64,000 nt of DNA from Methanomassiliicoccales archaeon (GCA_029907465.1 JARYLV010000006.1:1-64000); one strand, 5' to 3'; shown: positions 908 to 17,936, counted from the stretch's first letter. Numbers and translations: made by a program. The notes: generated by a model from the sequence alone, not told the origin.

Positions 908-1369
908 TCAATGGGAATCGTTGTGATTGTCCTCTGGGTGCTCGTGCCCGTGGTGTTCGTGGTCGTGTTCGTCATCACGCACGTCTATGTCTTCAACATT
1001 TGCCATGAATCCTTTTGAATTCGTCTCTTCCTCCAGTACGCGCTTAAAGATCTCCTCCACCTGCACTCTGTTCAAACCGTATAAAAGAATGTTGATCACA
1101 AGTTCCATTTTGCTGACATTGGTTCCAAGACTCCCTTTGCATCGTGCCTTACCATCGTTGTCTGTGACGCTGCAAGTAAGATAATGACCGCTGTCACTCT
1201 CAGCGATGCACTTCGCATGTCCAATGAGGCTGGCGCCAGCCTTCACACACTCAATAACAGACCTTGACATTAAATTTTCAACCACTTTTTGCATTTCCGA
1301 TCCAGTTCTCAAGTGATCCGAAGTGATCTGTACTTTGGCTGCATATGCTGAGAAATCAGGTGTCAACAT
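908..1369 (-). CDS. Partner protein of G3E GTPase with His-rich C-terminus
   Basis: A 153-residue protein that I cannot assign to a named family. Residues 1-125 look like a compact alpha/beta domain with four cysteines; the last ~25 residues are a His/Asp/Glu-rich tail with about nine histidines. Such tails occur on nickel, zinc and cobalt chaperones such as HypB, UreE and CobW. Its ATG (1369) overlaps the stop of the G3E GTPase gene (stop 1365-1363), so the two are translationally coupled. The GTPase lacks the usual C-terminal CobW domain, so this protein may supply that part in trans (inference). A role in loading metal into a corrinoid, tungsten or nickel enzyme nearby is plausible but unproven. 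Confidence 0.75.
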   Translation of the reverse strand: MLTPDFSAYAAKVQITSDHLRTGSEMQKVVENLMSRSVIECVKAGASLIGHAKCIAESDSGHYLTCSVTDNDGKARCKGSLGTNVSKMELVINILLYGLNRVQVEEIFKRVLEEETNSKGFMANVEDIDVRDDEHDHEHHGHEHPEDNHNDSH

Positions 1370-1965
1370 GCACTCACCAGATAGTCAATAACCTTGTCGA
1401 GATTTGTACCCTCCGTGGCTGAGGCTGGAATGATTGCTCCCGTCGCTCCAATCTCCCTAATCTTTGCTTCAATTTCCTCCACCGCAGCAGCTGAAACTTC
1501 ATCGATCTTGTTGATAATGACGAGTCCCGCCGCTTTCAACTGAGCCTTTAGCGGTCTCTCAAGCGCCCTGACGATCGCAGAAAACCTTACGGCATCAACG
1601 ACAACTGCAACTACCCTCCTATTGACTGGGGGTCCGCTATAGAGTTCCAGTGAGTTCAGTATCGCTTGTGGATCTGCGATACCCGTTGGCTCTACCATAA
1701 CGATGTCAGGTGAGAACTCCAGTGCCACAGTCCTTAATGTACTGATGAAATCAGAACCGAGCGTGCAGCATATGCATCCACTGGCAAGTTCCTGAACCTG
1801 CAGACCGTATTTCTGCATGACCTTTCCATCAATTCCAATTTTTCCAAAATCGTTTACAATTATCACGATTTTTTTTCCAGTCTGCTCAATGATTTTCGAA
1901 ATCGTCGAGAGAATCAGCGTAGTCTTGCCTGAGCCAAGGAAACCCGCTATGACAACAAGATCCAT
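1363..1965 (-). CDS. G3E-family (CobW/HypB-like) metallochaperone GTPase
   Basis: A 200-residue P-loop GTPase of the G3E family. It has the Walker A motif GFLGSGKTT near residue 8, the family metal-binding motif CxCC (GCICC, residues 63-67), a Walker B/switch region with VEPTG, and the guanine-specificity motif NKID near 152. G3E proteins use GTP hydrolysis to insert or deliver a metal (Co, Ni, Zn). Typical CobW proteins are about 320 residues; this one ends after the G domain, so the C-terminal domain is missing or replaced by the downstream His-rich protein. I chose the ATG at 1965, which follows AAGGTG; a GTG three codons upstream is possible. A TATA-like element lies near 2030-2037. Confidence 0.88.
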   Translation of the reverse strand: MDLVVIAGFLGSGKTTLILSTISKIIEQTGKKIVIIVNDFGKIGIDGKVMQKYGLQVQELASGCICCTLGSDFISTLRTVALEFSPDIVMVEPTGIADPQAILNSLELYSGPPVNRRVVAVVVDAVRFSAIVRALERPLKAQLKAAGLVIINKIDEVSAAAVEEIEAKIREIGATGAIIPASATEGTNLDKVIDYLVSAC

Positions 1966-2306
1966 TGGAAACACCTTTTCATCTTCACAGCCACGGCGAT
2001 TAGTTGTTTGGCATTTACATTCTCTCGCCTAAATAAACCTTACCAAAAAATAACGTAAATCATGTTGGTCCGAAGAAAAATCGGCTGAGACAGATCAGAG
2101 CTTGGAGAAAAATGTGTTTGAAAGATTATTTTGATATCAGCACTAGATTTGCTTTTGCTCAGGACTGCCGTATTCTTTTTTTTGAGTTTCTTAGCTCTCA
2201 TAAAAGCGCTAAAAATTCGATAATTCTTCGACTCGGAGCGATCCACAACAAAGTATATTTGAGAAATTGTAGATAGAGGAAAATTCTGATAGAATTGGGG
2301 GTCAGG
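1966..2306. other. Divergent intergenic region with promoters
   Basis: About 340 bases between two divergent units. On the minus strand a TTTATTTAGG element (2028-2037) could serve the G3E GTPase. On the plus strand AAGTATATTTGAG (near 2250) could serve the Lrp-RACE-AOR operon, giving a short leader. Open frames here are short and AT-rich, and I see no protein signature. Confidence 0.5.
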
Positions 2307-2768
2307 ATGAACCGCGAAAAACTTGACGAAAAAGACAAAGAGCTCTTGATCATGCTGGCAAACCATCCAGATTGGACGTACGAGAAAATCGCTGAGAAAA
2401 TGGGAATGACAAGCAGATCTGTAGGGTACAGGATTGAAAGACTCAGAGAACTCAAAATCCTTCAGAAAGCAAATCTCATTTATTACGATCGCCTCGGAGA
2501 TTTGATCTATTCGGTAGTTCTCAAATTTGACACGGGACTATCGCCACAAGATCAAGAGAAAGTTCTCAGAGAACTCAAGAGTCATCCTGCCACTATTCAG
2601 GTTTTCACCGCCATTGGTGCTTTCAGTGCGATCTTGCTTTTCCACGCGGAAACACCAAGAGAAGCTGAACGGCTGATCAGAGAACTCGTGATCAGCAACA
2701 AATGTTTTTCTGGATATGAAATAAGTCAGATCACGGAGATATACAGCATCTATCGTCATTATTACTAA
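2307..2768 (+). CDS. Lrp/AsnC family transcriptional regulator
   Basis: A 153-residue Lrp/AsnC-type regulator. The N-terminal half has a winged helix-turn-helix (tYEKIAEKMGMTSRSVGYRIERL), and the C-terminal half fits the alpha/beta ligand-binding RAM domain that forms dimers and octamers. These proteins usually sense amino acids or other small effectors. The gene lies 10 bases before the corrinoid-activating ferredoxin protein and probably starts that operon, so it likely regulates it. The ATG at 2307 follows GGGGGTCAGG; an in-frame TTG at 2295 would add four residues. It is one of two Lrp-type genes in the window. Confidence 0.9.
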   Translation: MNREKLDEKDKELLIMLANHPDWTYEKIAEKMGMTSRSVGYRIERLRELKILQKANLIYYDRLGDLIYSVVLKFDTGLSPQDQEKVLRELKSHPATIQVFTAIGAFSAILLFHAETPREAERLIRELVISNKCFSGYEISQITEIYSIYRHYY

Positions 2769-2778
2769 TCGGGTCACT

Positions 2779-4698
2779 ATGCCAAAAGTGCGCTTCGAGC
2801 CGTCAGGAAGAACCGTTGAGACAACAGATGAGAATGAAACGCTTTACGAACTTGCAGCAAGAGCCGGGATTCCGCTTGAGTCAGTATGTGGCGGCAGGGG
2901 GATCTGTGGGCGGTGCCGTGTCATCATCGCCACTGATGTTATACCAGTTACACCAGAAGACAAGAAGTGCATTTCTGAAAAAGACCTGGAGAGAGGCGTT
3001 AGGCTTGCTTGTCGTCACAAGGTCGACCGGGATTTGGTGGTCGAAGTACCCGAGGAATGTGAGAGAACAGGGCAGGTGATACTCGAGAAAACCCATGTGA
3101 GGGTCAACATTGATCCTGCCGTGAAAAGAGTGACGCTCTGCGTACCGCCACCATCCCTTGACTATCCAATGGCAGACTTTGAGCGCATCAAGCAAGTCTT
3201 GTCAATTTCCAGATACAGAGACTTAAAAATCCCTTTGGAATTACTTTCGGAACTGCCAGGATTCTTGAGAAAAGGTGAAGAAATCGAAATTGTGTTGAGA
3301 AATAACGAAATCATCAGACTCGCTGCCAATGAGGACAAACGGGTTTACGGCGTTGCCATCGACGTCGGAACGACAACGATCGTTGCATATCTGATGGACT
3401 TAATAACCGGAGAGGAAGTCGCCGTTAAGTCCGACATGAACCCTCAGATCAGATATGGTGATGATGTTATCTCAAGAATTACCTTCACAATGGAGACAAC
3501 CAATGGGCTCGATCTCCTTCGCGATCTCGTAATCAAATGCATCAACGACCTTATACATGCATGCTGCTCTTCCGTACAGATTTCAAAGGAGGAGGTTTAT
3601 GAAGTCGTTGTAGTTGGCAATACGGCGATGCACCATATGCTTTTTGGGTTGGAGATGCAGTCGCTTGTCTTCGCACCACATATCCCTGTGGTTACAGCGC
3701 CCATCGAGCAGAAAGCCTTTGATGCGGGAATAGACATTTGGAAGGAAGGATATCTTTATTCACTTCCGAACATCGCTGGCTTTGTTGGCGCGGATCATGT
3801 TGGTGTGCTCCTCGCTGTAGGTGCCGATCGGTCAGATAAGGTGCAAATGATCATCGACATCGGAACGAATGGAGAAATATCGCTTGTTACACCAGATGGA
3901 ATCGCAAGTGCTTCCTGCGCCGCCGGTCCTGCGTTTGAGGGCGGAAATCTCGCGTTCGGTATGCGGGGGGCCAAAGGTGCGATCGACCACGTTCATATTA
4001 GAGATGACTTAGAAGTAGAATATTCTGTTATCGGAAACGTCAAGCCTCGTGGTATCTGCGGTTCTGGTGTGGTTGATGCAATCGCTGAGATGATTCAATT
4101 GGGGATTGTCGATAGATCTGGAAGAATCGTCGAGGAGATTGATTCGCCTCGCATAATCGTCAAGGATGGAGAATCGCGTTTCGTCATTGCATACGAGAAT
4201 GAGACGGCTGTCAGCGAACCGATAGCGATCACTCAAAACGATGTACTCCAGGTACAGTACGCGAAAGCTGCGATGTATGCTGGAGCGGCAACTCTTATGA
4301 AAAAGATGGGATTAGGTGAAAAGGATCTTGATGCAATTCTACTTGCTGGGGCATTCGGGAACTATTTAGACCCGGCGAGTGCAAGGACAATTGGACTCTT
4401 CCCTGAAATCCCCCTCGATCGCATCATTGGTATTGGCAATGCGGCGGGTGCGGGGGCAAAATTGGCTCTTCTCAATAGAGAGCTGAGAAGGCGTGCGAAT
4501 GATATTGCGAGAAAGGTCAGGTATATTGAGCTTGCGGCGCAACCAGATTTTGAAGAAACTTTCTATTCTGCACTCTACTTCCCACATCTCGACCCTTCAC
4601 GATTTCCTTCTGTCAATTCTGAGATCATACGAAGATCGAAGGGGTGTTTCTTAAAAATGAAGAACCGCTCCACTTCAAAGAAGGAAAAGGTAATTTAG
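2779..4698 (+). CDS. Ferredoxin-ASKHA reductive activator of corrinoid proteins (RACE, RamA/AcsV-like, DUF4445)
   Basis: A 639-residue protein matching ATP-dependent reductive activators of corrinoid enzymes. Residues 1-90 are a plant-type 2Fe-2S ferredoxin with ligands C37-x5-C43-x2-C46 and C78. A linker follows, then a large ASKHA-fold ATPase (about 190-590) with the phosphate loop IDVGTTTI, a second IDIGTNGE and a GAFGNY segment. Such proteins couple ATP hydrolysis to reduction of inactive Co(II) corrinoid to Co(I). The obvious client in this window is the corrinoid protein at 10.8-11.5 kb. It is the second gene of an Lrp-RACE-AOR unit. The last ~40 residues are basic and poorly conserved. 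It could also serve corrinoid proteins encoded elsewhere. Confidence 0.9.
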   Translation: MPKVRFEPSGRTVETTDENETLYELAARAGIPLESVCGGRGICGRCRVIIATDVIPVTPEDKKCISEKDLERGVRLACRHKVDRDLVVEVPEECERTGQVILEKTHVRVNIDPAVKRVTLCVPPPSLDYPMADFERIKQVLSISRYRDLKIPLELLSELPGFLRKGEEIEIVLRNNEIIRLAANEDKRVYGVAIDVGTTTIVAYLMDLITGEEVAVKSDMNPQIRYGDDVISRITFTMETTNGLDLLRDLVIKCINDLIHACCSSVQISKEEVYEVVVVGNTAMHHMLFGLEMQSLVFAPHIPVVTAPIEQKAFDAGIDIWKEGYLYSLPNIAGFVGADHVGVLLAVGADRSDKVQMIIDIGTNGEISLVTPDGIASASCAAGPAFEGGNLAFGMRGAKGAIDHVHIRDDLEVEYSVIGNVKPRGICGSGVVDAIAEMIQLGIVDRSGRIVEEIDSPRIIVKDGESRFVIAYENETAVSEPIAITQNDVLQVQYAKAAMYAGAATLMKKMGLGEKDLDAILLAGAFGNYLDPASARTIGLFPEIPLDRIIGIGNAAGAGAKLALLNRELRRRANDIARKVRYIELAAQPDFEETFYSALYFPHLDPSRFPSVNSEIIRRSKGCFLKMKNRSTSKKEKVI

Positions 4699-4742
4699 TT
4701 CTCCTGATATAAATGGAGCAACAAACACTGGAAGGGAACTTC

Positions 4743-6503
4743 ATGAAGGGATACACTGGGCGAATTTTGAAGATCGACGTCAGCTCGAAATCGACAAAGA
4801 TAGAAAAACTTGATGAAAAGAAAGCAAAGGAATGTATTGGCGGCAAGGGTCTCGGCGCGAAAATAATTTTGGACGAAGTTCCTGCGGGCGTGGATCCCCT
4901 TTCCCCTAACAATACGCTCGTTTTCGCCGTAGGTCCTTTGACTGGCACGCGTGCCCCAACATCAAACCGATACGGTGCTTTTTTCAAGTCCCCCCTCACA
5001 GGCATCTGGGGGGAATCGTATTCAGGCGGGCATCTTGGTCCCCAGATCAAGAAAGCGGGCTATGATGCCGTCGTCATTAAAAACGCCTCCCCGTCTCCGA
5101 TTTACATCAGCATTATTGATGACGATGTTCGATTTCACGACGCGAGTGCGATCTGGGGAAAAACAACCGCGGAGACCGAAGACGCGGTGAAAAAGGACAT
5201 CGGTGAGAGTAAGGCTAAAGTTATGACGATTGGACCTGCTGGTGAGAACCTCGTTAAATTCGCATGTATTTGCAATGATTACTACAGACAGCTTGGAAGA
5301 GCTGGAGCAGGCGCGGTCATGGGATCAAAGAAGATCAAAGCCATCGCGTTCATGGGCACGAAGGAAGTCGAACTCGAGAACGAGGAGAAATTCAATGCTG
5401 TCGTCAAAGAAGTCCTGAACCGCATTCCGAAGGACGGCCCAATGACGAAGTACGGGACGCCGGTAATGGTCAATAATCAGAATGCACTGGGTGCTTTTCC
5501 AACACATTACTGGCAAAAGGGATTCTTTGACTCGCACATCAAGATTAACGCCCCGACGATGGAAAAGGAGATTCTCGACAAGAATAAGGCATGCTGGAAC
5601 TGCCCAGTCGCGTGCGGAAAGATGTCCTCCGTAAAGGAAGGAAAGTACAAGGGGACTGTAGTTGAGGGGCCTGAATACGAAACAATTTTCGCATTTGGGG
5701 GACTGTGTGAAATCGCCGATATCAAGGCGATTGCAAAGATCAACGAGGTCTGCGATAGCCTCGGCTTAGACACAATCACATCTGGCAATGTCATTGGATT
5801 TGCAATGCGCGCCTACGAACTCGGTCGCCTTAATTCAGAGTTCCCTATAAGATTTGGAGACGATGACATTGTGCTCAAGTTACTCGACATGATTGCGAGC
5901 AGGAATGGATTGGGGAACGTACTGGCGGAAGGTGTCAAGAGTGCTTCTAAAACCCTCGGTCTCGAAGATATCGCTGTGCATGTTAAAGGACTCGAGCCCC
6001 CGGGTTATGATCCCAGAGGATATAACGGAATGGCGCTATCCTATGCCATCGGCGTCAGAGGAGCTGATCACCTGAGGTCGACTGCGTACGCATATGAGAT
6101 GAGAGGCGTAGTTGACAGGTTCGCTGTCACTGGCAAGGGAACGTTCATTAAGAATCTCGAAGACAAACTCGCCGTCATCGATTCAATGGTTCTCTGCTGC
6201 TTTGTGCGGGACGCCTACGAATGGGAGGATCTTGCGAATTTGTACACGTATGCAACTGGAATCAACATGTCTGCAACGGAACTCAAGAATGCTGGTGCGA
6301 GAGCTGTTGATAATGCGCGACGCTTCAGCGTGCGGGAAGGTATCAGCAGAAAAGACGATTCGTTGCCGAAAATTTTCCACGAGGTGCCGTTTTCTGACGG
6401 ATCATCGCGAATGCATGTCGTCGTCAAGGAAGATATGGAAAGAATGCTCGATGAATACTACGACGCACGTGGATGGAGTAGAGATGGAATTCCGCCAGTT
6501 TAG
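4743..6503 (+). CDS. Tungsten-dependent aldehyde:ferredoxin oxidoreductase family protein
   Basis: A 586-residue AOR family enzyme that oxidises an aldehyde to the acid while reducing ferredoxin, using a bis-tungstopterin centre and one 4Fe-4S cluster. Visible features are the N-terminal GYTGRIL start, a GGKGLGAK segment, the cluster motif CxxCxxxC (CWNCPVAC, near residue 283) and a distal cysteine in the MVLCC segment near 484, spaced as in Pyrococcus AOR. I chose the ATG at 4743 because family members begin at GYTG; the upstream ATG at 4713 would add ten unlikely residues. It lies 44 bases after the RACE gene. The substrate is unknown; removal of aldehydes from amino-acid degradation is the default. 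Confidence 0.92.
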   Translation: MKGYTGRILKIDVSSKSTKIEKLDEKKAKECIGGKGLGAKIILDEVPAGVDPLSPNNTLVFAVGPLTGTRAPTSNRYGAFFKSPLTGIWGESYSGGHLGPQIKKAGYDAVVIKNASPSPIYISIIDDDVRFHDASAIWGKTTAETEDAVKKDIGESKAKVMTIGPAGENLVKFACICNDYYRQLGRAGAGAVMGSKKIKAIAFMGTKEVELENEEKFNAVVKEVLNRIPKDGPMTKYGTPVMVNNQNALGAFPTHYWQKGFFDSHIKINAPTMEKEILDKNKACWNCPVACGKMSSVKEGKYKGTVVEGPEYETIFAFGGLCEIADIKAIAKINEVCDSLGLDTITSGNVIGFAMRAYELGRLNSEFPIRFGDDDIVLKLLDMIASRNGLGNVLAEGVKSASKTLGLEDIAVHVKGLEPPGYDPRGYNGMALSYAIGVRGADHLRSTAYAYEMRGVVDRFAVTGKGTFIKNLEDKLAVIDSMVLCCFVRDAYEWEDLANLYTYATGINMSATELKNAGARAVDNARRFSVREGISRKDDSLPKIFHEVPFSDGSSRMHVVVKEDMERMLDEYYDARGWSRDGIPPV

Positions 6504-6605: not shown

Positions 6606-7949
6606 TTAGTGAGCATCATTTTCCCTGAGCAGCTGCTCGAGGATTTCCATCGCCGTGTCTATTTGTTCCCTCGTAACATTGAGGGCTGGAATGATACGAA
6701 TGCTGCTCGGTCCGCAGAATAGAATGAGTAGACCTCTTTTCATTGCGTCGAGGCATATCTTATTCCGTTCATCTGGCGCTGGTGTTCTCGATTTCTTGTC
6801 TTTCACGATCTCGATCGCCGTCATCAAACCGATACCGCGCACGTCCCCCAGAATCTCGTATTTATCCTTCATTTCGTTCAAACGCGCGATCATGTAGGCC
6901 CCCTGTTTCGCCGCGTTTTCCAGCATTCTCTCTTCTTCAATAGCCTCGATCGTGGCTAGCGCTGCGGCACAGGTGACTAGGTTCCCACCGAATGTAGTAG
7001 CATGTGCGCCGGGTTGCTTGATGTCAAATTTCTCATTGAAAATGCATGCGCTCATCGGCAATCCGGAAGCGATCCCCTTTGCGACGACCATGATGTCTGG
7101 GACCACGTCAAAATGCTCAATCGCAAACCATTTACCCGTCCTTCCAAATCCCGATTGAACCTCATCAGCGACGAAGAGAATGCCGTACTTCTCACAGATT
7201 TTCTTGATCTCCTTCATCCACGGCTTCGGTGGGACAATATACCCGCCTTCGCCCTGTATCGGCTCGACAAAAATGGCCGCCACTTCCTCGGGTGGAATGA
7301 ACTTCTGAAGATAGAGCTCATCGATGATCTTAGCGCAGTAAAGATCGCAGCTGGGATAAGTCATCTTGTAGGGGCACCGATAACAGTAGGCGTATGGCAC
7401 ATGAAGAACACCTGGCATCTCCGGGAAGAAACCTTTCCTGTACGCAGTCCTGCTCGCCGTCAGGCTCATCGAGCCTATGGACTTTCCGTGGAATGCCCCG
7501 ATAAATGCAATATTCCGCGGCCTCCCAGTTGCCCATCTAGCTACTTTTATCGCAGAGTCGATCGCGCCCGCGCCACTGCACATAAAATAAACTTTTTTCA
7601 CGAAATCGCCAGGTGTGATTTCATTGAGCTTCTTCGCCACCTCGCCTTCAATATTCTGAGAAAGAAGAATGCCCGGGAAGTGAATGAGTTCAGCAACCTG
7701 TTTTCTCACGGCCTCGACGACCTTTGGATGGCAATGACCAGTATTGTTGACGGCAATCCCAGACTGAAAGTCTAGGTAGACATTGCCATCGACATCCTCA
7801 ACATAAAGACCTTGTCCTCTTTTGGCAACAACTGGCATGACCTTATTCGTTGTAGCGAGATACTTCTTATCCCTCTCAAGGATTTCACGTGCCTTCGGAC
7901 CAGGCGGCTCAACGACGATCGATATCCTGTCAAGTTTATTCTCAGACAT
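6606..7949 (-). CDS. Class III PLP aminotransferase or amino-acid racemase with Cys-rich insert
   Basis: A 447-residue fold-type I PLP enzyme of the 4-aminobutyrate/ornithine aminotransferase class. The internal aldimine lysine is in VVAKGIASG, the DEVQSGFGRTG motif supplies the cofactor-binding Asp, and TTFGGN is present. A short insert with four cysteines (YRCPYK...SCDLYC, near residue 200) is found in archaeal members, some of which are omega-aminotransferases and some broad amino-acid racemases, so the reaction is not settled. A paralogue with the same insert is at 60610-61953. The gene lies 138 bases downstream of the amidohydrolase on the same strand and may be the last gene of the methyltransferase operon, or separate. 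Confidence 0.87.
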   Translation of the reverse strand: MSENKLDRISIVVEPPGPKAREILERDKKYLATTNKVMPVVAKRGQGLYVEDVDGNVYLDFQSGIAVNNTGHCHPKVVEAVRKQVAELIHFPGILLSQNIEGEVAKKLNEITPGDFVKKVYFMCSGAGAIDSAIKVARWATGRPRNIAFIGAFHGKSIGSMSLTASRTAYRKGFFPEMPGVLHVPYAYCYRCPYKMTYPSCDLYCAKIIDELYLQKFIPPEEVAAIFVEPIQGEGGYIVPPKPWMKEIKKICEKYGILFVADEVQSGFGRTGKWFAIEHFDVVPDIMVVAKGIASGLPMSACIFNEKFDIKQPGAHATTFGGNLVTCAAALATIEAIEEERMLENAAKQGAYMIARLNEMKDKYEILGDVRGIGLMTAIEIVKDKKSRTPAPDERNKICLDAMKRGLLILFCGPSSIRIIPALNVTREQIDTAMEILEQLLRENDAH

Positions 7950-8087: not shown

Positions 8088-9776
8088 CTATTCCATTTTA
8101 GAGTGGACAACTTCTCCCCCGACCATCGTGAGGAGCACTCGTATGTCCTTGATCTTGTCAGGCTCCACTCCCAGCGGATCGTCGCTTAAAATGACAATAT
8201 CTGCATACTTGCCTACTTCTATTGACCCTTTGACATGCTCTTCTCCAGTCGCGTAAGCGCCTTCAATCGTCACCATCTTCAACGCGTGTTCCACTGGAAT
8301 GCGCTGCTCGGGATGCCATCCTCCCTTAGGAACTCCCTGTGCGTCTTTCCTCACTGAAGCTGCATAGATATTCATGATCGGATTCATCGTTTCGATTGGC
8401 GCGTCAGTCCCAGAGCACATATGGATGCCGGCTTCCATCATAGACCTATACGGATGTGCGTACTTTTCTCTCTGCGGCCCGACAAGTCGAGGGATCCAGT
8501 GTTGTCCCTTCATGATGAACACCGGCTGCACGTTTGCGATGACGTTCATTTCCTTGAATTGCTCGATAAGATCCGGGGCGTGTATGATGCAATGACTGAT
8601 CTTGAATCTTGGATCTTTAACATTATACTTATTGAGCGTTTCTCTAAAAATCTTAAGGACTGTTTCAATTGCTCCATCACCTAATGCGTGAATATCGACC
8701 CTAATTCCGTTCTTCGTTGCGTTTTCCACGAACGCTCTGATTTCCTCGTACGTGAGACGCATCACCCCTCTGTTGTCTGGCATATCAGCATAGGGTTCGC
8801 GGAGCGCAGCGGTATGACTGCTGAGTGAGCCGTCCACGATCATCTTTGCGCCAGCTAATCTTACCTTACTGGATCCAAAACCGCTTTTTATACCGAGTTT
8901 GATCAAGTAATCGAGATACTGGAAACCCAAATAGAAATTGACCCTCACCGGCAACTTCCCTTCGGCCTCAAGCTCCTGATAGGCCTTCACCTGAGCGTCT
9001 CCTGCGAGTATATCGACGATCGAAGTGAGTCCCCATTCCGCCGCCCTGTCTACACAATACTTCAGTGCGGCCTTGCTCTGCTCATAGCTGAACAGGCCCG
9101 CACCCGTTTCGAGGAACCCTGGCGCGATGAGATCGATCGCGTTCTCAAGAAGGACACCGGTCGGCTCGCCCTTGTCGTCCTTCACAATCGTGCCACCTGG
9201 AGGGTCCGGCGTATCCTTCGTGATCCCCTTCTGGTTCATTAACATCGTGTTGATCAGATAGATATGGGCGTTCCAGTGAATGAGGAAGACCGGATGATCC
9301 GGTGCGACTGTATCGACTTCCCACCTTGTCGGGTAGCGCTTTTCCGCCATGCGCTCCTGGTTCCAACCGAACCCGAGAATCATTTCTCCCTTTGGCGTCT
9401 CTTTGACCTTTTGTTTAATCCTTTCAAGCATCTCAGGGATATCCTTTACGTCTGTCAGGTATACACCCCTTGCAAAATGCCCGACGAGCAATGGGTGCAT
9501 GTGCGAGTCATGAAATCCTGGGACAACGGTTTTTCCTTTCGCATCGATCACTTTCGTCTTGCTACCGATCATTGATTCAATTTCTTTGTTACTGCCAACG
9601 GCTACTATTACACCGTTCAGAATGCCTACGGCCTCCGCTCTTGACATATTCTTGTCAACAGTGATCACATTCGCATTGATGATCGCTGCATCAAGAGGAA
9701 TCCCCTTTTCCTTTTTCACACCACTTTTTCCAACTCTACTTCCACTTTTCTTCTTACCACTATCCACATCCTTCAT
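8088..9776 (-). CDS. YtcJ-like amidohydrolase (Amidohydrolase_3)
   Basis: A 562-residue metal-dependent hydrolase. The beta1 metal motif is DSHMHP (H92, H94), HALGD supplies a later ligand, and SGTDAP holds the catalytic aspartate near the end of the barrel. YtcJ-type enzymes hydrolyse N-acyl or cyclic amide bonds; substrates vary and cannot be read here. The first ~25 residues are a Lys/Ser/Gly-rich extension without a signal peptide, so the protein is cytosolic. Its ATG directly follows the TAG of the methyltransferase upstream (TAG at 9779-9777, ATG at 9776), so the two are co-transcribed. This suggests that it releases or prepares the methylated substrate of the corrinoid system (inference). 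Confidence 0.88.
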
Positions 9777-10838
9777 CTATCGCCCCCCTTTCCCATAGAG
9801 TTCAGCTGCCTTCACCATCGCCTTTACATTCTCTAATGGCGTATTCGGCGAGATCTCACAACCTGGCGAAAGGATCATTCCCTTGCGATCAAGGAACCCC
9901 TTTTCGATCGCATCCTTCGCTTCCCGTTCAACCGCCTCAGCACCCTCAAGAATGAGTGTTGTCGTCTGATCGATCCCGCCCACGAGGCAGACCTTACCTC
10001 CGTACCTCGCTTTCGCTTCTTCAAGACTCAAATTGCTACCGCGATCCCACCAATTGATCCCATTTGCGTTCGTGTAGCCGGCGAGAATCTCGAAATGTGG
10101 TTCGACACCACAGACATGCAGTATATTTGCCCCGTCTTGTTTTCTTAGTGATGAAAGCACGAGCCGATCATACTTCACACCGAACTCCCTATATTGTTCT
10201 TCAGTTGTGATCTCACCAGATGCACGAGTTGTCGCAAAGAGGACGCCATCAGCACCAGCATCCATGATCGCCTCAATATACGCGATGATTGTTTCAGTCA
10301 TCGTTTTCAGGCCTATGTGAAGCGCGTCGGGATTGAGCAAAATATCCATCATGACCTGTTCCATGTTGCACACGTGCGTCGCCGAGGTCAGCGGGGTAGG
10401 AACATATGGCATGAGAGCCGTCCTATCTCCAAGATGATCCCTAATTTTTTTCACAGCTCGGATAGTCACGTGCATTCTTCCGTCAACGAGAGGATCGAGA
10501 ACCTGCAGTTTTTCCCAATCACTTGGCTCCTTAACAGCGAATTCACCGAGCATCGGCGTCAGATCAGCCTCGTATCGCATCTTTACCCCCCAACCCTCCG
10601 CGAGCTGCCCCATATCTGAAGTAGGGTTAAGGATGTCAACGCCAGTTTTTTCCCAAAAGGCGATCTGCCCCTTCGCCATTGTTTCGCCATCTTGCGCATA
10701 TTCTTTCGTCGAAAAGCCGCCAGCGACCGCGCCGATCGTCCACCCCATACCGCAGACGGGGATCCGATCGACAGAGTCATGCATCAGTGCAGCATACACC
10801 CTATCCCTTGAGCTCATTGATCGACTCATGCTGACCAC
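9777..10838 (-). CDS. MtaA/UroD-like corrinoid methyltransferase (copy 1)
   Basis: A 353-residue protein of the uroporphyrinogen decarboxylase/MtaA superfamily. It keeps the zinc-thiol site of methylcobamide methyltransferases, H241-x-C243 (HVC) and C327 (PGCE), which true URO-D enzymes lack, so methyl transfer is far more likely than haem synthesis. It would move a methyl group between a substrate or thiol acceptor and the adjacent corrinoid protein. Ten bases separate it from the corrinoid gene upstream, and it abuts the amidohydrolase downstream. The paralogue at 11638-12690 has the same zinc ligands. One copy may demethylate the substrate and the other pass the methyl to an acceptor; which does which cannot be told. 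Confidence 0.88.
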   Translation of the reverse strand: MVSMSRSMSSRDRVYAALMHDSVDRIPVCGMGWTIGAVAGGFSTKEYAQDGETMAKGQIAFWEKTGVDILNPTSDMGQLAEGWGVKMRYEADLTPMLGEFAVKEPSDWEKLQVLDPLVDGRMHVTIRAVKKIRDHLGDRTALMPYVPTPLTSATHVCNMEQVMMDILLNPDALHIGLKTMTETIIAYIEAIMDAGADGVLFATTRASGEITTEEQYREFGVKYDRLVLSSLRKQDGANILHVCGVEPHFEILAGYTNANGINWWDRGSNLSLEEAKARYGGKVCLVGGIDQTTTLILEGAEAVEREAKDAIEKGFLDRKGMILSPGCEISPNTPLENVKAMVKAAELYGKGGR

Positions 10839-10848
10839 TACCCCAAAT

Positions 10849-11514
10849 TCAGGCCTTTTCTTGTCGCGCAGCCAGATAGCACTGATTCCCTTTCATCAGT
10901 TCCGCGACCATCTCAACAGCAAGAACAGCGTCTGCAGCGTAGCCGTCTGCCCCAATCCTTTTGGCAAAGGTTGTCGTGATGGGCGCGCCACCGACCATGT
11001 ATTTGACTTTGTCCTTCAATCCTGCGTCCTTCAACTTATTAAGAATTGTCTCTAATTCTGGCATTGTGGCAGTGAGCAATGTTCCAGCGCCAACGATATT
11101 GGCGTTTTGCTGTTTAGCCGCCTCGACAAACTTGTCGAGCGGCACATCCTTTCCCAGATCATGAACTTTGTAGCCGTAGACCTGCAACATACCGACGACG
11201 AGATTCTTTCCGATGTCGTGGATGTCATTCTGCACGACACCCATGACAACTGTCCCAGCCTCGCCTTTCGTGTCCATCACATACGGTAAAAGCATCTTCT
11301 TGAACGAATGCGTTGCGAGAATCAGTTGTGGCAGCGCGATCTCTCGTTCCCGATACTTATGTCCAACGACGTTCATCGCGTCTATGAGAACCTTTCCAAC
11401 GTCCTTGCTGTCAACACCTGCAGCTTTCAACATTTCACCGATTTTCTGCGCTTCTCCAACTTTTCCGTTGACCACGCATTCGTACGCCATTTTGTATTGT
11501 TCCTCATTCATCAT
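10849..11514 (-). CDS. Corrinoid (B12-binding) methyl-carrier protein, MtaC/MttC-like
   Basis: A 221-residue methyl carrier of the methyltransferase family. An N-terminal helical cap domain (about 1-85) precedes a Rossmann-like B12 domain with the base-off/His-on motif D97-x-H99-x2-G102 (NDIHDIG), where H99 is the lower cobalt ligand. The GTLLTAT and GGAPIT segments cradle the cobalamin tail. It sits between the two MtaA-like methyltransferases in one transcription unit and should carry the methyl group between them. Reactivation would be done by the RACE protein at 2779-4698. The start is ATGATG after GGAGTGGT; the second ATG (11511) is equally possible. A TATTTATT element about 80 bases upstream may give it an extra promoter. 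Confidence 0.93.
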   Translation of the reverse strand: MMNEEQYKMAYECVVNGKVGEAQKIGEMLKAAGVDSKDVGKVLIDAMNVVGHKYREREIALPQLILATHSFKKMLLPYVMDTKGEAGTVVMGVVQNDIHDIGKNLVVGMLQVYGYKVHDLGKDVPLDKFVEAAKQQNANIVGAGTLLTATMPELETILNKLKDAGLKDKVKYMVGGAPITTTFAKRIGADGYAADAVLAVEMVAELMKGNQCYLAARQEKA

Positions 11515-11637: not shown

Positions 11638-12690
11638 TCAGTACTTCCCGTATCGTCTCGCGGCGTTAATCGCTGCGCGCATGTTCGCCCACGGTGTTTT
11701 CGGTGAAACTTCACAACCTGGTGCTAAAACGAACCCGCTTCCCTCTTTTGCAGTTTCACAAGCATTCTTTATTTCGGCGGCGACGTCATCTGGTGTTCCA
11801 GAAACAAGTGTATTCGTATGATCAATGCCTGCCATTAGAGCGAGGTTCCTTCCATATGTCGCTTTCGCTTCAGCAAGGTTTGGTTTCGCACCCCTGTCCC
11901 ACCATGAAATCGCCTTAACGTTCTTGAATTTCTTTCTATAATCGTCGATGATTTCGAACATCGGTTCGACACCGCAGATGTGTGGGACATGGACCATCGC
12001 GGGCGTTCTCCTAAAGATCTCCTCATCATATGGTGCGCCAAATTCACGGTACTGTTCAACAGTTGTGATCTCCTTGCTCGCCCTTGTCGTGAGGTAACCC
12101 GCAAAGTAAGCGCCATTGTCAACGCAAGCGTTGATGAAATCCGCGATCGTATCTGTGATGACCTTCAACCCTTTCTTTAGCGCGTCGGGATCGGTAATCA
12201 TGTGCATGAGTGTATCTTCCATCGAACAGACATGGGTTGTCGTCGTCAACGGGCTTGGCATCGACACGCCAATTGGAACTCTATCACCATACTTTTCGCT
12301 ACATATAGCGCATGCATCGAGGTACAGCCTCATTCTACCGTCAACACGTGGATCAAGCACCTCTAGCTTTTCCCAGTCACCAGGCTCTTTCACCGGGAAC
12401 TTCCCCAGCGCCATGTGGATATCTGGCTCAGTCGGAAGTTTCATCCTCACTCCCCAACCCTGCACAATCAGCCCCATGTCCGATAGGCAGTAGATATTGT
12501 CTCCGCCAACATGCTCGTAAAAAGCAATGTGAGCTTTCGCCATGTTGGCTCCACTTGTGCCGTACTTGATCACATCCATACCCGGCACAAAATGTACCTC
12601 AAATATCCCGCCGAAAAGCGACACTGGGACGTAGTCAGGCGTCTCAAAATTCAAGGCCGCCTCAAACCGCTGCATCGGTGTCATTTCCAT
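11638..12690 (-). CDS. MtaA/UroD-like corrinoid methyltransferase (copy 2)
   Basis: A 350-residue MtaA/UroD superfamily protein, first gene of the methyl-transfer operon. Zinc ligands H237-x-C239 (HIC) and C326 (PGCE) are in place. It is clearly homologous to copy 1 at 9777, sharing the WWDRG segment, the TTRAS-EITT-EQYREFG block and the GCE-SP-TP ending, but it has diverged elsewhere, as expected for a division of labour. Translation starts at the ATG at 12690, 7 bases after AAGGGGGG. A strong TATA box and an inverted repeat lie just upstream (12713-12745). The methyl donor is unknown; methoxylated, methylthio or methylamine-type compounds are all conceivable. Confidence 0.88.
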   Translation of the reverse strand: MEMTPMQRFEAALNFETPDYVPVSLFGGIFEVHFVPGMDVIKYGTSGANMAKAHIAFYEHVGGDNIYCLSDMGLIVQGWGVRMKLPTEPDIHMALGKFPVKEPGDWEKLEVLDPRVDGRMRLYLDACAICSEKYGDRVPIGVSMPSPLTTTTHVCSMEDTLMHMITDPDALKKGLKVITDTIADFINACVDNGAYFAGYLTTRASKEITTVEQYREFGAPYDEEIFRRTPAMVHVPHICGVEPMFEIIDDYRKKFKNVKAISWWDRGAKPNLAEAKATYGRNLALMAGIDHTNTLVSGTPDDVAAEIKNACETAKEGSGFVLAPGCEVSPKTPWANMRAAINAARRYGKY

Positions 12691-12827: not shown

Positions 12828-13547
12828 TCAAACGTGAGTTAGAAAGATCCTCGCATCAGCAACTTTTACGCCTTTCGCATTGCCAAAAACAGGATTGAGA
12901 TCCATCTCTTCGATCTCATCAAAATCGCAAAGCAACCGTGAGACGGCAAGCAAAGTGGATACAACGATGTTTGTGTCGACCCTCTCACTCCCCCGATATC
13001 CTTCAATAAGTTTTTTCCCCTTCAACTCAGAAATCATTTCGAGTGCGTCGATCTCCTCAATAGGAACAAGCCTGTATGAAACGTCCCTAAAGACCTCGAC
13101 ATTGATCCCACCGATCCCGAACATGATCATTTGGCCAAACTGTGCATCCCTCGTAGAGCCGATGATCATCTCATGTCCACGTACCATCTCGGACACGAGG
13201 ACACCGCGGAAATCGAAATCGCCCAGTCTCTTTCGTGCGCTCGAGAACATTTCATCAAATGCTGACTTAACATCTTCATCGTTTGCGATATTTAGCCGGA
13301 CGCCACCGAATTCGGTCTTGTGAACAATCTGGGGCGAGACGATCTTCATCGCAACGGGATAGCCGATTCTTCTGGCAGCATGAACGGCTTCATCAGGAGT
13401 CCTGCAAAACATATCTTGCGTGACCGAGATTCCATATGATCTCAAAACAGCTTTTGCTTCATGTTCTAGCATGAAATTTCTACCTTCATCCCGGGCCATT
13501 TTGATCAAATTGGCAGCTTCCCCTGTCATGTAATTACCTTCCCTCAA
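12828..13547 (-). CDS. ADP-forming acyl-CoA synthetase, beta subunit (ATP-grasp)
   Basis: A 239-residue ATP-grasp subunit. It includes YPVAMKIVSPQIVHKTEFGGV, where the lysines and the HK motif bind nucleotide, and the C-terminal EMDLNPVFG metal-binding strand. With the alpha subunit upstream it would make acid + CoA + ATP from acyl-CoA, ADP and phosphate, the energy-conserving step of archaeal peptide and acid fermentation. Its ATG lies inside the alpha-subunit gene (14-base overlap), so the two are coupled. Archaea often encode several such pairs with different acyl preferences; the substrate here is probably the product of the CoA-transferase-like pair that starts the operon. Confidence 0.92.
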   Translation of the reverse strand: MREGNYMTGEAANLIKMARDEGRNFMLEHEAKAVLRSYGISVTQDMFCRTPDEAVHAARRIGYPVAMKIVSPQIVHKTEFGGVRLNIANDEDVKSAFDEMFSSARKRLGDFDFRGVLVSEMVRGHEMIIGSTRDAQFGQMIMFGIGGINVEVFRDVSYRLVPIEEIDALEMISELKGKKLIEGYRGSERVDTNIVVSTLLAVSRLLCDFDEIEEMDLNPVFGNAKGVKVADARIFLTHV

Positions 13548-14955
13548 AACTGATCGCTCTTCGCTTCAAAAATTCAACATATCCATATATTGCACCGACA
13601 GCTCTCGCTGTCCGCTCTGGCCAGTCAAAGCATGGCACACGGTTTTTCTGCAAAATGTCCATATTTCCCAGGGCGCTCCTTACTGACACCCAGCAAACGT
13701 ATGTCGGTTTCTTGTAACCCCACGCGAGACACTTATTCACGGTGTCAGCGACTGCCTGGCACACCTCAGGCATCATCGCCGCCCGCTGCAAGATAATTGG
13801 TACGATAATATCGATCTCATCACATTCATAAAGGATTTCAATGATCTTTGAATAAAGCTCAACGAACTTTGGCCAAACGGGTGTCATGTCGACAGGGTTC
13901 CTCGCGCTCGCATACGGTGGGATCAATTCCTTAATTTTCTCCTGAGTCTCTGCGGACAGTTCTGGAACAACGAGTCCGGCTTCCTCACACAGATCGGCAA
14001 GTTCAACCCCAGTGCCGCCCGAATTCGTCACGATGCCGACTCTTGGCCCTCTTGGAAGTGGCTGCCAGTCAAGACCTTTTGCGATGTTGATGAGGTCCAT
14101 TCCATTCCTCGCGAAGATGATGCCTGATTGTTTGAATGCGGCTTCATAAGCCGTAAAAGAGCCGGCCAGCGCAGCCGTATGGGAGGCCGCCGCCCTTGCT
14201 GCACCAGCCGTTCTTCCAGTTTTTGTCGCGACAATAGGCTTCTTAGGAGTGATCTTCTTCGCCTCCTCAAAAAATTCCCTGCCTTTGTTAACAGATTCGA
14301 GGAACAGGCAGATGACTTTCGTTTCGTCGTCTTCTCCCAAGTATCTCAGAATTTCATAGTCCTCTATACCAGCTTTGTTTCCGTGCGCCATGATCTTTGC
14401 GAATTTCATGTGGTGATCAAGCGCACAGGCAAATATCGCCATACCGTAGGCACCTGACTGTGTCACGAATGAAATATCACCGCCCCTTGGTGGCGTACCG
14501 ACACCTAGAGAGGCATTTAGACCGATATTGCAATTGTAAATCCCAAAACAATTTGGACCAACTACTTTGATTTTCCCCTTATTTGCCGCTACCATCATTT
14601 CCTCTTCGAGCTTTTTCCCCTCAGGCCCCGCTTCGCTGAACCCGGCTGTAATAACAACTGCTGCCTTTGTTCCCTTTTCTGCCAGTTCTTCCATTACCTT
14701 CGGAACGGCCTTAGCAGGGATGACGATAACTGCTAGGTCAATCGAATCAGGAATCGACTTCACATTTGGATAACATGTTAATCCGAAAACCTGCTGCTCC
14801 GACGGATTGACCATATAAACCTTACCACGGTAACCATCGATTATGTTCTTCGCAAAAACATAACCCATTTTTCCTTCCTTATTCGAGGCACCGATCAACG
14901 CGACTGACTTCGGATTAAAAATCGCATCAATTCTTTCGTCTTTCACAACCCCCAC
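13534..14955 (-). CDS. ADP-forming acyl-CoA synthetase, alpha subunit
   Basis: A 473-residue subunit with an N-terminal CoA-binding Rossmann domain (FNPKSVALIGAS), a first succinyl-CoA-ligase-like domain holding the phosphorylated histidine in the AASHTAALAG motif (near residue 260), and a second ligase-like domain with GIVTNSGG. This is the standard order for archaeal ACD alpha subunits, and the length is normal. The phosphohistidine swings to the ATP-grasp beta subunit encoded next. It starts 15 bases after the IpdB-like gene, forming a four-gene operon (16744 to 12828). Confidence 0.93.
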   Translation of the reverse strand: MGVVKDERIDAIFNPKSVALIGASNKEGKMGYVFAKNIIDGYRGKVYMVNPSEQQVFGLTCYPNVKSIPDSIDLAVIVIPAKAVPKVMEELAEKGTKAAVVITAGFSEAGPEGKKLEEEMMVAANKGKIKVVGPNCFGIYNCNIGLNASLGVGTPPRGGDISFVTQSGAYGMAIFACALDHHMKFAKIMAHGNKAGIEDYEILRYLGEDDETKVICLFLESVNKGREFFEEAKKITPKKPIVATKTGRTAGAARAAASHTAALAGSFTAYEAAFKQSGIIFARNGMDLINIAKGLDWQPLPRGPRVGIVTNSGGTGVELADLCEEAGLVVPELSAETQEKIKELIPPYASARNPVDMTPVWPKFVELYSKIIEILYECDEIDIIVPIILQRAAMMPEVCQAVADTVNKCLAWGYKKPTYVCWVSVRSALGNMDILQKNRVPCFDWPERTARAVGAIYGYVEFLKRRAISFEGR

Positions 14956-14970
14956 CTTCTCGAGGTTATT

Positions 14971-15813
14971 TCATATGTAGAACTTCCTTTTCAACTCTTC
15001 TGGCTGAAACTCCAACTGTCTTACCTTCAGCGGGTCGATCTGACGGATCAGTTCAACTTCCTCTCTCGTAGGCATATCCATAATCCTTACTTCTGGATGT
15101 ATGACTGGCCGGAACTCGGTGTTTTCTAGGATCGTCTCGACAGTCGTATCTGGGTAGAGATAGCGCAATCGCATTATTTTCGTTTCTGGATCAAAATCGA
15201 AAACACCGAGTTCAGTTACCACCCAGTCAGGACCGTTGCCGACCAGATCGAGATCACGGCGGTTTCCATAGGGCGTCACATGTCCAATGTTTGTTATGAA
15301 GTCGCATTTCTCGACAAGTGCATAAATAACCCTATCCTTCTTTCTCTGGACTCGATGTCTTGTCGTCCAGATCGTGTAATTAACGCAATCGGCTGAGAGG
15401 TTACAGCCCCCTGCTCCACCAGGGAACTTTATCTTGCATTTCTCTGGTGTCCCTATCAAGCTGACATTTTGATTACCATACTTGTCGATCTGTGCACCAC
15501 TGAAGAAAGATCGATCGAGTTCTCCCCTTTGTGCGAGATCGAAGATCTTATCAACAGTCACCATCGCAGTTCTTCCCTGAATCATAACCCAATCGTTTGT
15601 CGTGTAAGGGAGAAACGGTGGGTTTGGATCAACCGCACTCGAAACTCCCCCAAAATAGACCATGTCCTTCGCGTGCGTTAGCTTGGCAAAATACATGGCG
15701 ACCATTGGTATCGGAGATGAAACCCCATGAAAGACTGTACTCCTATCCTTGATCGTGCGCGCGACGTTTACAACGAAAAGTTCGTCAATCCCGACTTCAA
15801 ACCCGTCATTCAT
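14971..15813 (-). CDS. CoA-transferase family I subunit B-like (IpdB-like)
   Basis: A 280-residue protein of the glutaconate CoA-transferase beta family. The ATG at 15813 (MNDGFEVG) is the natural start and overlaps the subunit A gene by 8 bases; a longer frame to 15909 is out of family. By memory it resembles mycobacterial IpdB more than GctB: DKYGNQN, the WVVTELGVFDF block and a C-terminal PTREEVELIRQIDP match in order. At the place where classical CoA-transferases carry the catalytic glutamate, here the sequence reads VYFGGVSSA with no Glu. IpdAB acts as a CoA-ester ring hydrolase instead of a transferase, so hydrolysis of a cyclic dione-CoA is a serious alternative to CoA transfer. Confidence 0.8.
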   Translation of the reverse strand: MNDGFEVGIDELFVVNVARTIKDRSTVFHGVSSPIPMVAMYFAKLTHAKDMVYFGGVSSAVDPNPPFLPYTTNDWVMIQGRTAMVTVDKIFDLAQRGELDRSFFSGAQIDKYGNQNVSLIGTPEKCKIKFPGGAGGCNLSADCVNYTIWTTRHRVQRKKDRVIYALVEKCDFITNIGHVTPYGNRRDLDLVGNGPDWVVTELGVFDFDPETKIMRLRYLYPDTTVETILENTEFRPVIHPEVRIMDMPTREEVELIRQIDPLKVRQLEFQPEELKRKFYI

Positions 15814-16744
15814 AGGTGAACAACTCCATCCATTTCTCGCGGCTTTCCTTCCATGATGCCAGCAATCGCATTTTTTCTTCCCCACCAATTCTCTCAATGT
15901 ACTCAGCATGCGATTTTACGCCAAAGACATACTTGTCAAGGTAATTCCTTTTGAAGGCTTCAGGTCCAGCCAAAGCCGCCCGCATGTATTCTGCGATATG
16001 CGCCCTATCATATGCATAGTAAGGATAACAGCTCGTTGGGTGCGCTCCAAACGGAGCGTGAACGACCGCTGTGATCTCGTAATAAGGTATTGTTGGTCCT
16101 ATCTTCTTCATTTCCTCTTCTGGCAGAATTTCTTCGGCGGTAACAATGACTTTCTTGGATGCCCTCATAAAGAGAACATCGGCGACATAGGGAGGCTCGA
16201 TTTTCACGTTACCATGTATGTCAGCCTTATTAACATGAATAATGGCAACATCAGGTTCGAGGGCAGGTACGAGGATGACTTTTTTGCCCGTGAATGGATC
16301 GGTGAATTCCTTGTATTCAGGATGGAATCTGATCTCGTCACTTCCCTTGATACTCCTCATCGGCACGAAAGGCATTCCAAATTCAGCGGCACGGAGCTGG
16401 TTGATAATCGTATTACAGCAGCTCTCCTTGATTTTGACAGCCCCGCTTTCGCAAGCACGTCTGTAGTTCGGCGCGAGCCCGAAATCCTGTTCAAAGCTCA
16501 CATGGGTCTCCTCAACAGTCCCAACGATACCGCCACCACATGCAAGGTCGACGTCGAATCCATGCGCTGTGCCGACGATGTGAAGATTGCGCCGCCCCTG
16601 TCGAATAAGTTCGCGCAGCATGGCGATTGGTTCCCTAAGACATAGACCGCCGCCAATCGCAACAATGTCCCCGTCCTTGACCATACGTGCAGCGTCTTCG
16701 AGTGTTGTCAGCTTATTCCTTTCAACAAAAATGCCCATTGCCAA
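15806..16744 (-). CDS. CoA-transferase family I subunit A-like (IpdA-like)
   Basis: A 312-residue alpha-type subunit of family I CoA-transferases. It has an N-terminal GDIVAIGGGL loop, a central HVNKADIHGNV segment and a C-terminal VVHAPFGAHPTSC motif followed by a Tyr-rich stretch, which I recall as similar to the GGAH block of IpdA. It is first in a four-gene operon with the B subunit and both subunits of an ADP-forming acyl-CoA synthetase. The complex either transfers CoA between acids or hydrolyses a cyclic CoA ester; the B subunit favours the second reading. A TTTATAACC box (16796-16788) lies about 45 bases upstream. Confidence 0.8.
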   Translation of the reverse strand: MAMGIFVERNKLTTLEDAARMVKDGDIVAIGGGLCLREPIAMLRELIRQGRRNLHIVGTAHGFDVDLACGGGIVGTVEETHVSFEQDFGLAPNYRRACESGAVKIKESCCNTIINQLRAAEFGMPFVPMRSIKGSDEIRFHPEYKEFTDPFTGKKVILVPALEPDVAIIHVNKADIHGNVKIEPPYVADVLFMRASKKVIVTAEEILPEEEMKKIGPTIPYYEITAVVHAPFGAHPTSCYPYYAYDRAHIAEYMRAALAGPEAFKRNYLDKYVFGVKSHAEYIERIGGEEKMRLLASWKESREKWMELFTYE

Positions 16745-16863: not shown

Positions 16864-17241
16864 TCACCAATGCTCCTCGTCAGGATTTGTGAAATGTGCC
16901 TGTAATGCTTCGAGTTCTCTTGCTATTCGCTGGTTCCTACAAGCCGTGCATTCTATTTCTTTTCCGAGCTTGTGTTTTAATCGTACAACGGTTGAATCGA
17001 TATCAGCAATTGCGCCGCATTCGCACAGAATCTTCTTACTCGAAAAAGGTCCGAACATAACCTCCCCCAGATTGCGTGAGTTCTCAAAAGAATAATCATT
17101 TATTGCAACGGTGTTTGAAACCAGAGGATTGGTCTCTCGTGTGCTCAAATCATTTGTCGGTTTCAACGATCCGATCGACTCGAGCCGCGGTTTAGAGCCA
17201 ATCGTGTCGAGAGCCTGGGCTATCCTATCGTTCAACACCAT
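16864..17241 (-). CDS. Hypothetical protein with C-terminal zinc ribbon
   Basis: A 125-residue protein I do not recognise. Residues 1-70 look disordered (Ser, Asn and Thr rich). The C-terminal third has CxC and CxxC pairs (CECG ... CTAC) about 26 residues apart, as in a small zinc ribbon. The ATG at 17241 follows GGGGGGACGGAT; an upstream TTG (17262) is possible. It stands alone between the CoA-transferase operon and an Lrp regulator, on the same strand. A regulatory or scaffold role is possible, but nothing specific can be said. Confidence 0.6.
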   Translation of the reverse strand: MVLNDRIAQALDTIGSKPRLESIGSLKPTNDLSTRETNPLVSNTVAINDYSFENSRNLGEVMFGPFSSKKILCECGAIADIDSTVVRLKHKLGKEIECTACRNQRIARELEALQAHFTNPDEEHW

Positions 17242-17492
17242 TACATCCGTCCCCCCACGCAAAGCACCTAGCTGATTCCCAATACACTTCCGTGCAAAGG
17301 AATCGGCAAAATAGGGCTCCGCCCCAAATGATTACTAAAAACCATATCGGACATAAAGACTTAAACATTTCCTTAACGCATTAAATTTTGGAAAAGCCAG
17401 CATTGTCCAGAAATTCCCAATCAAGTGCCAAAAGCGCTAACTTGTGTGCTGAATCATTCAAGAAAATCTCTGCAGACACAGGACGCAAGGAA

Positions 17493-17936
17493 TCACAATT
17501 CTTCCTTAACAGTCGCAAAAGATGCGCATGTGATCGTCCTCCCAACTCCCTCAATCTGTCTAAGTCTATCAATCACAAGGGATCCAATTTCTTCCATCGA
17601 TTTTCCCCTTACCTTCAGTAATATGTCGTACTCACCTGAGATAAGGTGGACCTCCATTACTCCCGCTAATTCCGCAATTTGTTGGGCGAGTTCCCTTTGT
17701 GATATATTCGGGTTTGGCAGGAAGCTGACCAGGATGAAAACCAGAATCGGCTCTCCCAAGTTCGCATAGTCGGGAAGGATGGTGAACTTGCGGATCAGTC
17801 CCTTTTCACACATCTTCCGGATTCTTTCACGAACCGTCGCCCTTGGCATGTTTACTACCTTCGCAATGGACTTTGTGGTCCTTCTTGAGTCCTTTTTCAA
17901 TTCATCAAGAATTGCCCGATCTTTCTCGTCAACCAT
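17493..17936 (-). CDS. Lrp/AsnC family transcriptional regulator
   Basis: A 147-residue regulator starting MVDEKDRAIL, with a winged helix-turn-helix (TTKSIAKVVNMPRATVRERI) and a C-terminal RAM domain containing GEYDILLKV, a typical effector-pocket segment. It lies upstream of, and on the same strand as, the zinc-ribbon gene and the CoA-transferase/acyl-CoA synthetase operon, about 1.2 kb away, so it could control amino-acid or acid catabolism there (inference). It differs clearly from the Lrp gene at 2307. Confidence 0.9.
   Translation of the reverse strand: MVDEKDRAILDELKKDSRRTTKSIAKVVNMPRATVRERIRKMCEKGLIRKFTILPDYANLGEPILVFILVSFLPNPNISQRELAQQIAELAGVMEVHLISGEYDILLKVRGKSMEEIGSLVIDRLRQIEGVGRTITCASFATVKEEL

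Follow-up and report, generated by a model that had tools for sequence, protein, structure and literature searches.

A CoA-transferase-fold protein pair lacking the catalytic glutamate within a corrinoid methyltransferase gene block of a Methanomassiliicoccales archaeon

Little is known of the substrates of environmental Methanomassiliicoccales, which are common in sediments and wetlands. The protein pair reported here, A/B, has as its closest described relatives AibA/AibB, the 3-methylglutaconyl-CoA decarboxylase of Myxococcus xanthus (5mzw), IpdAB, the COCHEA-CoA hydrolase of mycobacteria and Rhodococcus (6co6), and GctAB, the glutaconate CoA-transferase (1poi). IpdAB of RHA1 carries Gly57 at the site of the GctB catalytic glutamate and shows no CoA-transferase activity with the short acids tested (PMC5380842). 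AibAB variants in which Cys56 is replaced by Ala, Ser, Asn, or Val still decarboxylate (PMC7756340); therefore, this site need not carry an acid.

The genes around the pair resemble several described corrinoid systems. The methyl-sulfide:CoM methyltransferases MtpCA and MtsAB of methanogens combine a CoM methyltransferase with a corrinoid protein (PMC7374477), and MtoABCD, which serves methoxyaromatic demethylation in Methermicoccus, unites methyltransferases, a corrinoid protein, and an activator in one cluster. Type 1 mlp clusters encode UroD-family S/Se-methyltransferases, a corrinoid protein, and an activator, in some cases with methionine aminotransferases (PMC10418091). A His-Cys-Cys zinc site is reported to mark the S-methyltransferases of the UroD family, whereas the O-methyltransferases lose one or both cysteines (PMC10418091).

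The locus lies in a 64,000-nucleotide stretch (the window; GCA_029907465.1, JARYLV010000006.1:1-64000) of a 1.72 Mb draft genome that is 96% complete and from which genes could be missing. The order on the minus strand is A, B, and the alpha and beta subunits of an ADP-forming acyl-CoA synthetase (ACD) (12828-16744; Table 1). A is read from ATG 16738; a longer ORF opens at TTG 16744, from which the residues of A are numbered. B starts at ATG 15813 and overlaps the end of A by 8 bases; an ORF start at 15909 was rejected as a mechanical over-extension. The gap from B to ACD alpha is 15 bases, the two ACD genes overlap, and both the alpha and beta domains, with their catalytic His motifs, are present. 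Because A, B, ACD, UroD, and the corrinoid proteins all score under the curated cut-offs of the NCBIfam equivalogs, no ready NCBIfam name applies. Upstream of A, at 16864-17262, a 132-aa protein with a CxC...CxxC pattern is conserved yet fast-evolving and has no Pfam match.

Table 1. Coordinates of the features in the window and the evidence for each assignment.
Feature	Position	Strand	Evidence or remark
A subunit, CoA-transferase fold	15806..16738	-	PF01144; model pTM 0.71 matching 1poi, 5mzw, 6coj
A Cys109-Cys110 codons	16415..16420	-	Cys110 aligned with IpdA catalytic Glu105
B subunit, CoA-transferase fold without catalytic glutamate	14971..15813	-	PF01144; best solved relative AibB
B Gly56 codon	15646..15648	-	Site of GctB Glu54 / AibB Cys56 / IpdB Gly57
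ACD alpha; SHTAALAGS motif, Ser258-His259	13534..14955	-	TIGR02717, 462 bits
ACD beta; ATP-grasp, VHKT motif	12828..13547	-	PF13549
UroD1, corrinoid methyltransferase; His-Cys-Cys zinc site (H237, C239, distal Cys in APGCEV)	11638..12690	-	PF01208; alignment to MtaA 4ay7 and orthologues
Methyltransferase corrinoid protein, MtbC/MtgC-like; D97-I-H-D-I-G	10849..11514	-	Profile match and motif
UroD2, UroD-family methyltransferase; His-Cys-Cys, 46% identical to UroD1	9777..10838	-	Profile match, alignment
Amidohydrolase (Amidohydro_3)	8088..9776	-	Profile match, synteny
Class III aminotransferase, archaeal ornithine/amino-acid type	6606..7949	-	Profile match, synteny
Aldehyde:ferredoxin oxidoreductase (AOR), convergent to operon, closest to 1aor	4713..6503	+	Synteny
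RACo-type corrinoid reductive activator	2779..4698	+	Synteny
AsnC-type HTH protein, first gene of RACo-AOR pair	2295..2768	+	Synteny
CobW-type GTPase, next to block in G002 too	1363..1974	-	Synteny
Lrp/AsnC regulator, upstream of A/B operon	17493..17936	-	Synteny

The A and B subunits compared with AibAB, IpdAB, and GctAB

Both subunits match Pfam CoA_trans (E=3.8e-22 for A and 1.7e-11 for B), as expected from the fold named in the initial annotation, and they are the sole CoA_trans proteins of their genome. Structure prediction confirms the fold alone, and for A only (Table 1); the AlphaFold model of B has a pLDDT of 48 and was left unused. Ranked by match, the solved relatives of B are AibB (E about 1e-25), GctB, and IpdB (4e-10), and those of A are GctA, AibA, and IpdA.

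In all ten orthologues of B, Gly56, part of a GG pair within YFGGVSS or YVGGVTS, stands at the site of catalytic Glu54 in GctB and Cys56 in AibB. The possibility that a glutamate is hidden by misalignment was rejected, as both the pairwise and multiple alignments align the Glu site with the GG pair, and B has no other Glu in the vicinity. The glutamate is kept in the Glu-type paralogues L022, L091, L094, and L096, where in the multiple alignment it falls one column off at a gap and in an ungapped pairwise reading occupies the same site. One related genome, G008, holds both a Glu pair (L022) and a Glu-less pair, and G108 likewise holds L091 with Glu and L090 without it. Relative to a 93%-identical orthologue, the differences in B at codon positions 1, 2, and 3 number 22, 7, and 159, which indicates purifying selection on the genes. 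Given this selection and the presence of Gly56 in every orthologue, the loss of the glutamate is not an effect of chance or misalignment, and the observation made in the initial annotation is confirmed.

Glu-less CoA-transferase-like pairs of archaea are also found at L090:3760-5328 (G108), in another context, and at L095:8231-9867 (G409), with an ADP-forming synthetase and an AOR nearby; these pairs have Cys-Val and Cys-Gly at the glutamate site. At L096:5532-7346, and in other f34 genomes, Glu-type A and B are fused into one protein of ~600 aa, and the fusion gene at L096 lies near thiolase-like and acyl-CoA dehydrogenase-like genes.

The A subunit differs from IpdA in that Cys110 occupies the position of catalytic Glu105, which was identified as the single difference between 6co6 and 6coj ('IpdAB E105A'). 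Cys109-Cys110 is invariant in the nine orthologues that cover the site (9/9). Residues C35, C69, C98, C109, and C110 of A are all invariant among the orthologues; in the sample, 35, 98, and 109 are unique to this group and 69 and 110 are not, and a sixth cysteine, 239, is common to other families. In the predicted structure, the Cys35 loop and Cys109-110 appear to follow strand ends, where the active sites of this fold lie. Additionally, Cys137 and Cys143 of B are invariant.

The presence of invariant cysteines in predicted active-site loops, together with an intact fold and intact family-wide conserved segments, would be compatible with a true CoA-transferase in which a cysteine (as a thioester) or another residue takes the place of the glutamate, and Glu-type pairs are the nearest well-studied family. 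To our knowledge, no type I transferase works without the carboxylate, which counts against this reading, as does the lack of CoA transfer to short acids in IpdAB with the same Gly; we regard it as improbable.

In the concatenated A+B tree, a branch with 100% support separates the Glu-type from the Glu-less pairs. IpdAB joins the archaeal pair L095 at 92%, with the window pair outside, and the window group is placed with AibAB at 69%. The blocks DKYGNQN and LGVFDF, by which the initial annotation likened B to IpdB, are indeed found in B and also in Rhodococcus IpdB; the DKYGNQN segment includes several residues that nearly the whole family shares, and the closest solved relative is AibB rather than IpdB. 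These blocks, the shared Gly, and the fold match to 6coj are what would be predicted for an IpdAB-like hydrolase that opens rings in the archaeal metabolism of cyclic or aromatic acids. Membership in IpdAB was nevertheless rejected on the replacement of Glu105 by Cys110 and on the tree position. Furthermore, the neighbours are methyltransferase genes; the block lacks crotonase, thiolase, and acyl-CoA dehydrogenase genes as well as steroid genes, and none of the profile matches within the operon points to ring degradation or beta-oxidation. Ring opening is thus very unlikely, and the initial interpretation as a whole is partly supported.

Greater weight is due to an AibAB-like decarboxylase acting on an ester of the glutaconyl-CoA type, with the methyltransferases working on the same substrate at another step. 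Among solved structures AibB is closest to B, the A133-G134 loop of AibB is kept in PGGAGG, and the grouping in the tree, although weak, is with AibAB, in which Cys56 is dispensable for activity. However, both Cys56 and Glu72 of AibB are lacking, with Gly56 and Asn73 in their places, and the identity is low (about 30%). The cysteine-rich A subunit and the methyltransferase operon also set the pair apart, the gene context being different from that of the isovalerate pathway, and this decarboxylase reading is possible but rather unlikely. A/B represents a known fold in a Glu-less variant and is encoded within a methyltransferase block.

The corrinoid methyltransferase block

The initial annotation placed the pair in one operon with both ACD subunits, which holds, but its four-gene extent is incomplete, as the operon runs on through the genes for UroD1, the corrinoid protein, UroD2, the amidohydrolase, and the class III aminotransferase. 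The opposite strand carries, convergent with the operon, the HTH, RACo-type activator, and AOR genes, and a CobW GTPase gene lies beyond them. All parts of a corrinoid system are therein present: the corrinoid protein with its DxHxxG motif, UroD-type methyltransferases, and the RACo-type activator. UroD1 and UroD2 each contain His-x-Cys and a distant Cys that align with those of MtaA (4ay7) across seven loci. Because His-Cys-Cys is kept in both, S-methyl transfer is read for UroD1 and UroD2, and the block probably strips methyl groups from sulfur.

The same genes could also be assigned to O-demethylation of methoxylated aromatics, with the AOR acting on aromatic aldehydes, UroD1 as the O-demethylase, and ACD forming an aroyl-CoA. 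Methermicoccus uses corrinoid methyltransferase systems on methoxyaromatics (PMC8630106), and UroD1 has a weak match to Acetobacterium CdmB. In contrast to the O-demethylases, in which one or both Cys are reportedly replaced, both UroD proteins retain His-Cys-Cys; moreover, they are 350-353 aa long as against 47-48 kDa for MtoB, and the block has no gene for the MtrH-like MtoA. There is accordingly little probability in this assignment.

Compared with MtpCA and MtsAB, as these are described, the block contains two UroD genes in addition to ACD, A/B, the aminotransferase, and the AOR. An mlp cluster has three Mlps, and the description of these clusters mentions neither CoA-transferase-like pairs nor ACD, the term CoA being absent from its text (PMC10418091). 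At the level of abstracts, no description of the block was found in the Methanomassiliicoccales and Thermoplasmata literature on CoA-transferase, UroD, or AOR.

Conservation of the block and methyl routes of its carriers

Orthologues of B are present in 10 of 101 related genomes, a minority of Methanomassiliicoccales, and A, B, and ACD alpha are kept together in all ten carriers. ACD beta, UroD1, the corrinoid protein, and UroD2 are kept in every contig that reaches that far, and so is the aminotransferase in all contigs reaching it; the amidohydrolase is missing from its place in G045 and G060. The AOR, RACo, HTH, and aminotransferase genes are in place in G002 and G008, and the GTPase gene in G002. 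Across 390 genomes of the phylum, UroD2 of the same block is the only protein, apart from UroD1 itself, that exceeds 31% identity to UroD1. Corrinoid and UroD genes also occur without A/B or ACD in neighbourhoods of G044 and G079; at L143:4428-8851 (G044), a corrinoid protein gene, two UroD genes, and a RACo-like gene lie in a row.

McrA is present in the genome of the window and in 7 of the 10 carriers overall, which agrees with the initial view of an anaerobic archaeon and identifies it as a methanogen; G001, G004, and G051, in which McrA has no match, are all fragmented drafts. MtmB and MtbB were found in none of the ten carriers, and MtaB and MttB in none of the carriers among the 21 genomes searched for them (G000, G001, G002, G004, G005, and G008; the other four carriers are G045, G051, G060, and G066). 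The genome of the window has no match for any of these four families. As far as such family searches in draft genomes extend, the carriers are methanogens without a detected substrate methyltransferase (MT1) of the families searched.

Only three corrinoid proteins of the methyltransferase type are encoded in the genome of the window. The first belongs to this block, the second adjoins an MtaA-like UroD that is apparently split (C12/C32), and the third stands alone (C3). In light of the latter two, another methyl route may exist, and the principal one may be that of the UroD and corrinoid proteins on C12/C32. The UroD gene concerned is apparently split between the two contigs, and on C32 of G000 (L086:387-3105) a 660-aa ASKHA protein resembling caprolactamase and acetophenone carboxylase adjoins the corrinoid protein. 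The lone corrinoid protein on C3 of G000 (L085:8108-10525) has as its neighbour a radical SAM protein of AmmeMemoRadiSam-like type, and no gene for a methyltransferase adjoins it.

A proposed methanogenesis-feeding module

The reading to which we give the most weight, at close to an even chance, is that the block feeds methanogenesis from an S-methyl compound that can be activated with CoA, and that A/B acts as an acyl-CoA lyase or decarboxylase rather than as a transferase. UroD1, UroD2, and the corrinoid protein would transfer the methyl group of the S-methyl compound to coenzyme M, RACo would keep the corrinoid protein active, and McrA would reduce methyl-CoM to methane. The aminotransferase and the AOR may convert an amino compound through its aldehyde or oxo form to an acid, yielding reduced ferredoxin, and ACD would then interconvert the acid and its CoA ester with one ATP spent or gained; the coupling of A/B to ATP formation raised in the initial annotation is possible. 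By analogy with AibAB (decarboxylation) and IpdAB (hydrolytic C-C cleavage), A/B may bind the CoA ester and break a bond via an enolate, with no glutamyl-CoA intermediate, in a pocket where Gly and invariant cysteines would stand in for the usual acidic residues.

Methylthio acids such as 3-methylthiopropionate, possibly from methionine, would be the likeliest substrates. The aminotransferase, AOR, and ACD together resemble the amino-acid fermentation of Thermococcales. Methylthiopropionate derived from methionine would fit these three enzymes, and other methylthio acids would fit equally. A point against the proposed module is that the aminotransferase is no closer to methionine aminotransferase than to omega-aminotransferases and racemases. 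In addition, no single scheme places every gene, and it is unexplained why a simple demethylation would need a CoA-ester lyase.

In its most specific form, which we offer tentatively as a possibility on the unlikely side, the proposal is methanogenesis from methylthio compounds, either amino acids or acids, that are processed as CoA esters, in carriers without the MT1 families searched: transamination and the AOR would precede ACD, a Glu-less, cysteine-rich lyase would cleave the acyl chain, and paired UroD proteins would deliver the methyl group to CoM. The block would then join corrinoid methyl transfer to CoA-ester chemistry and to ferredoxin and ATP metabolism. If the proposed module is right, A/B would represent a third non-transferase branch of the CoA-transferase fold, beside AibAB and IpdAB, with a cysteine-rich pocket. 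The carriers would be methanogens that live on methylated acids by a route not yet described, and the range of known methanogenesis substrates would be wider.
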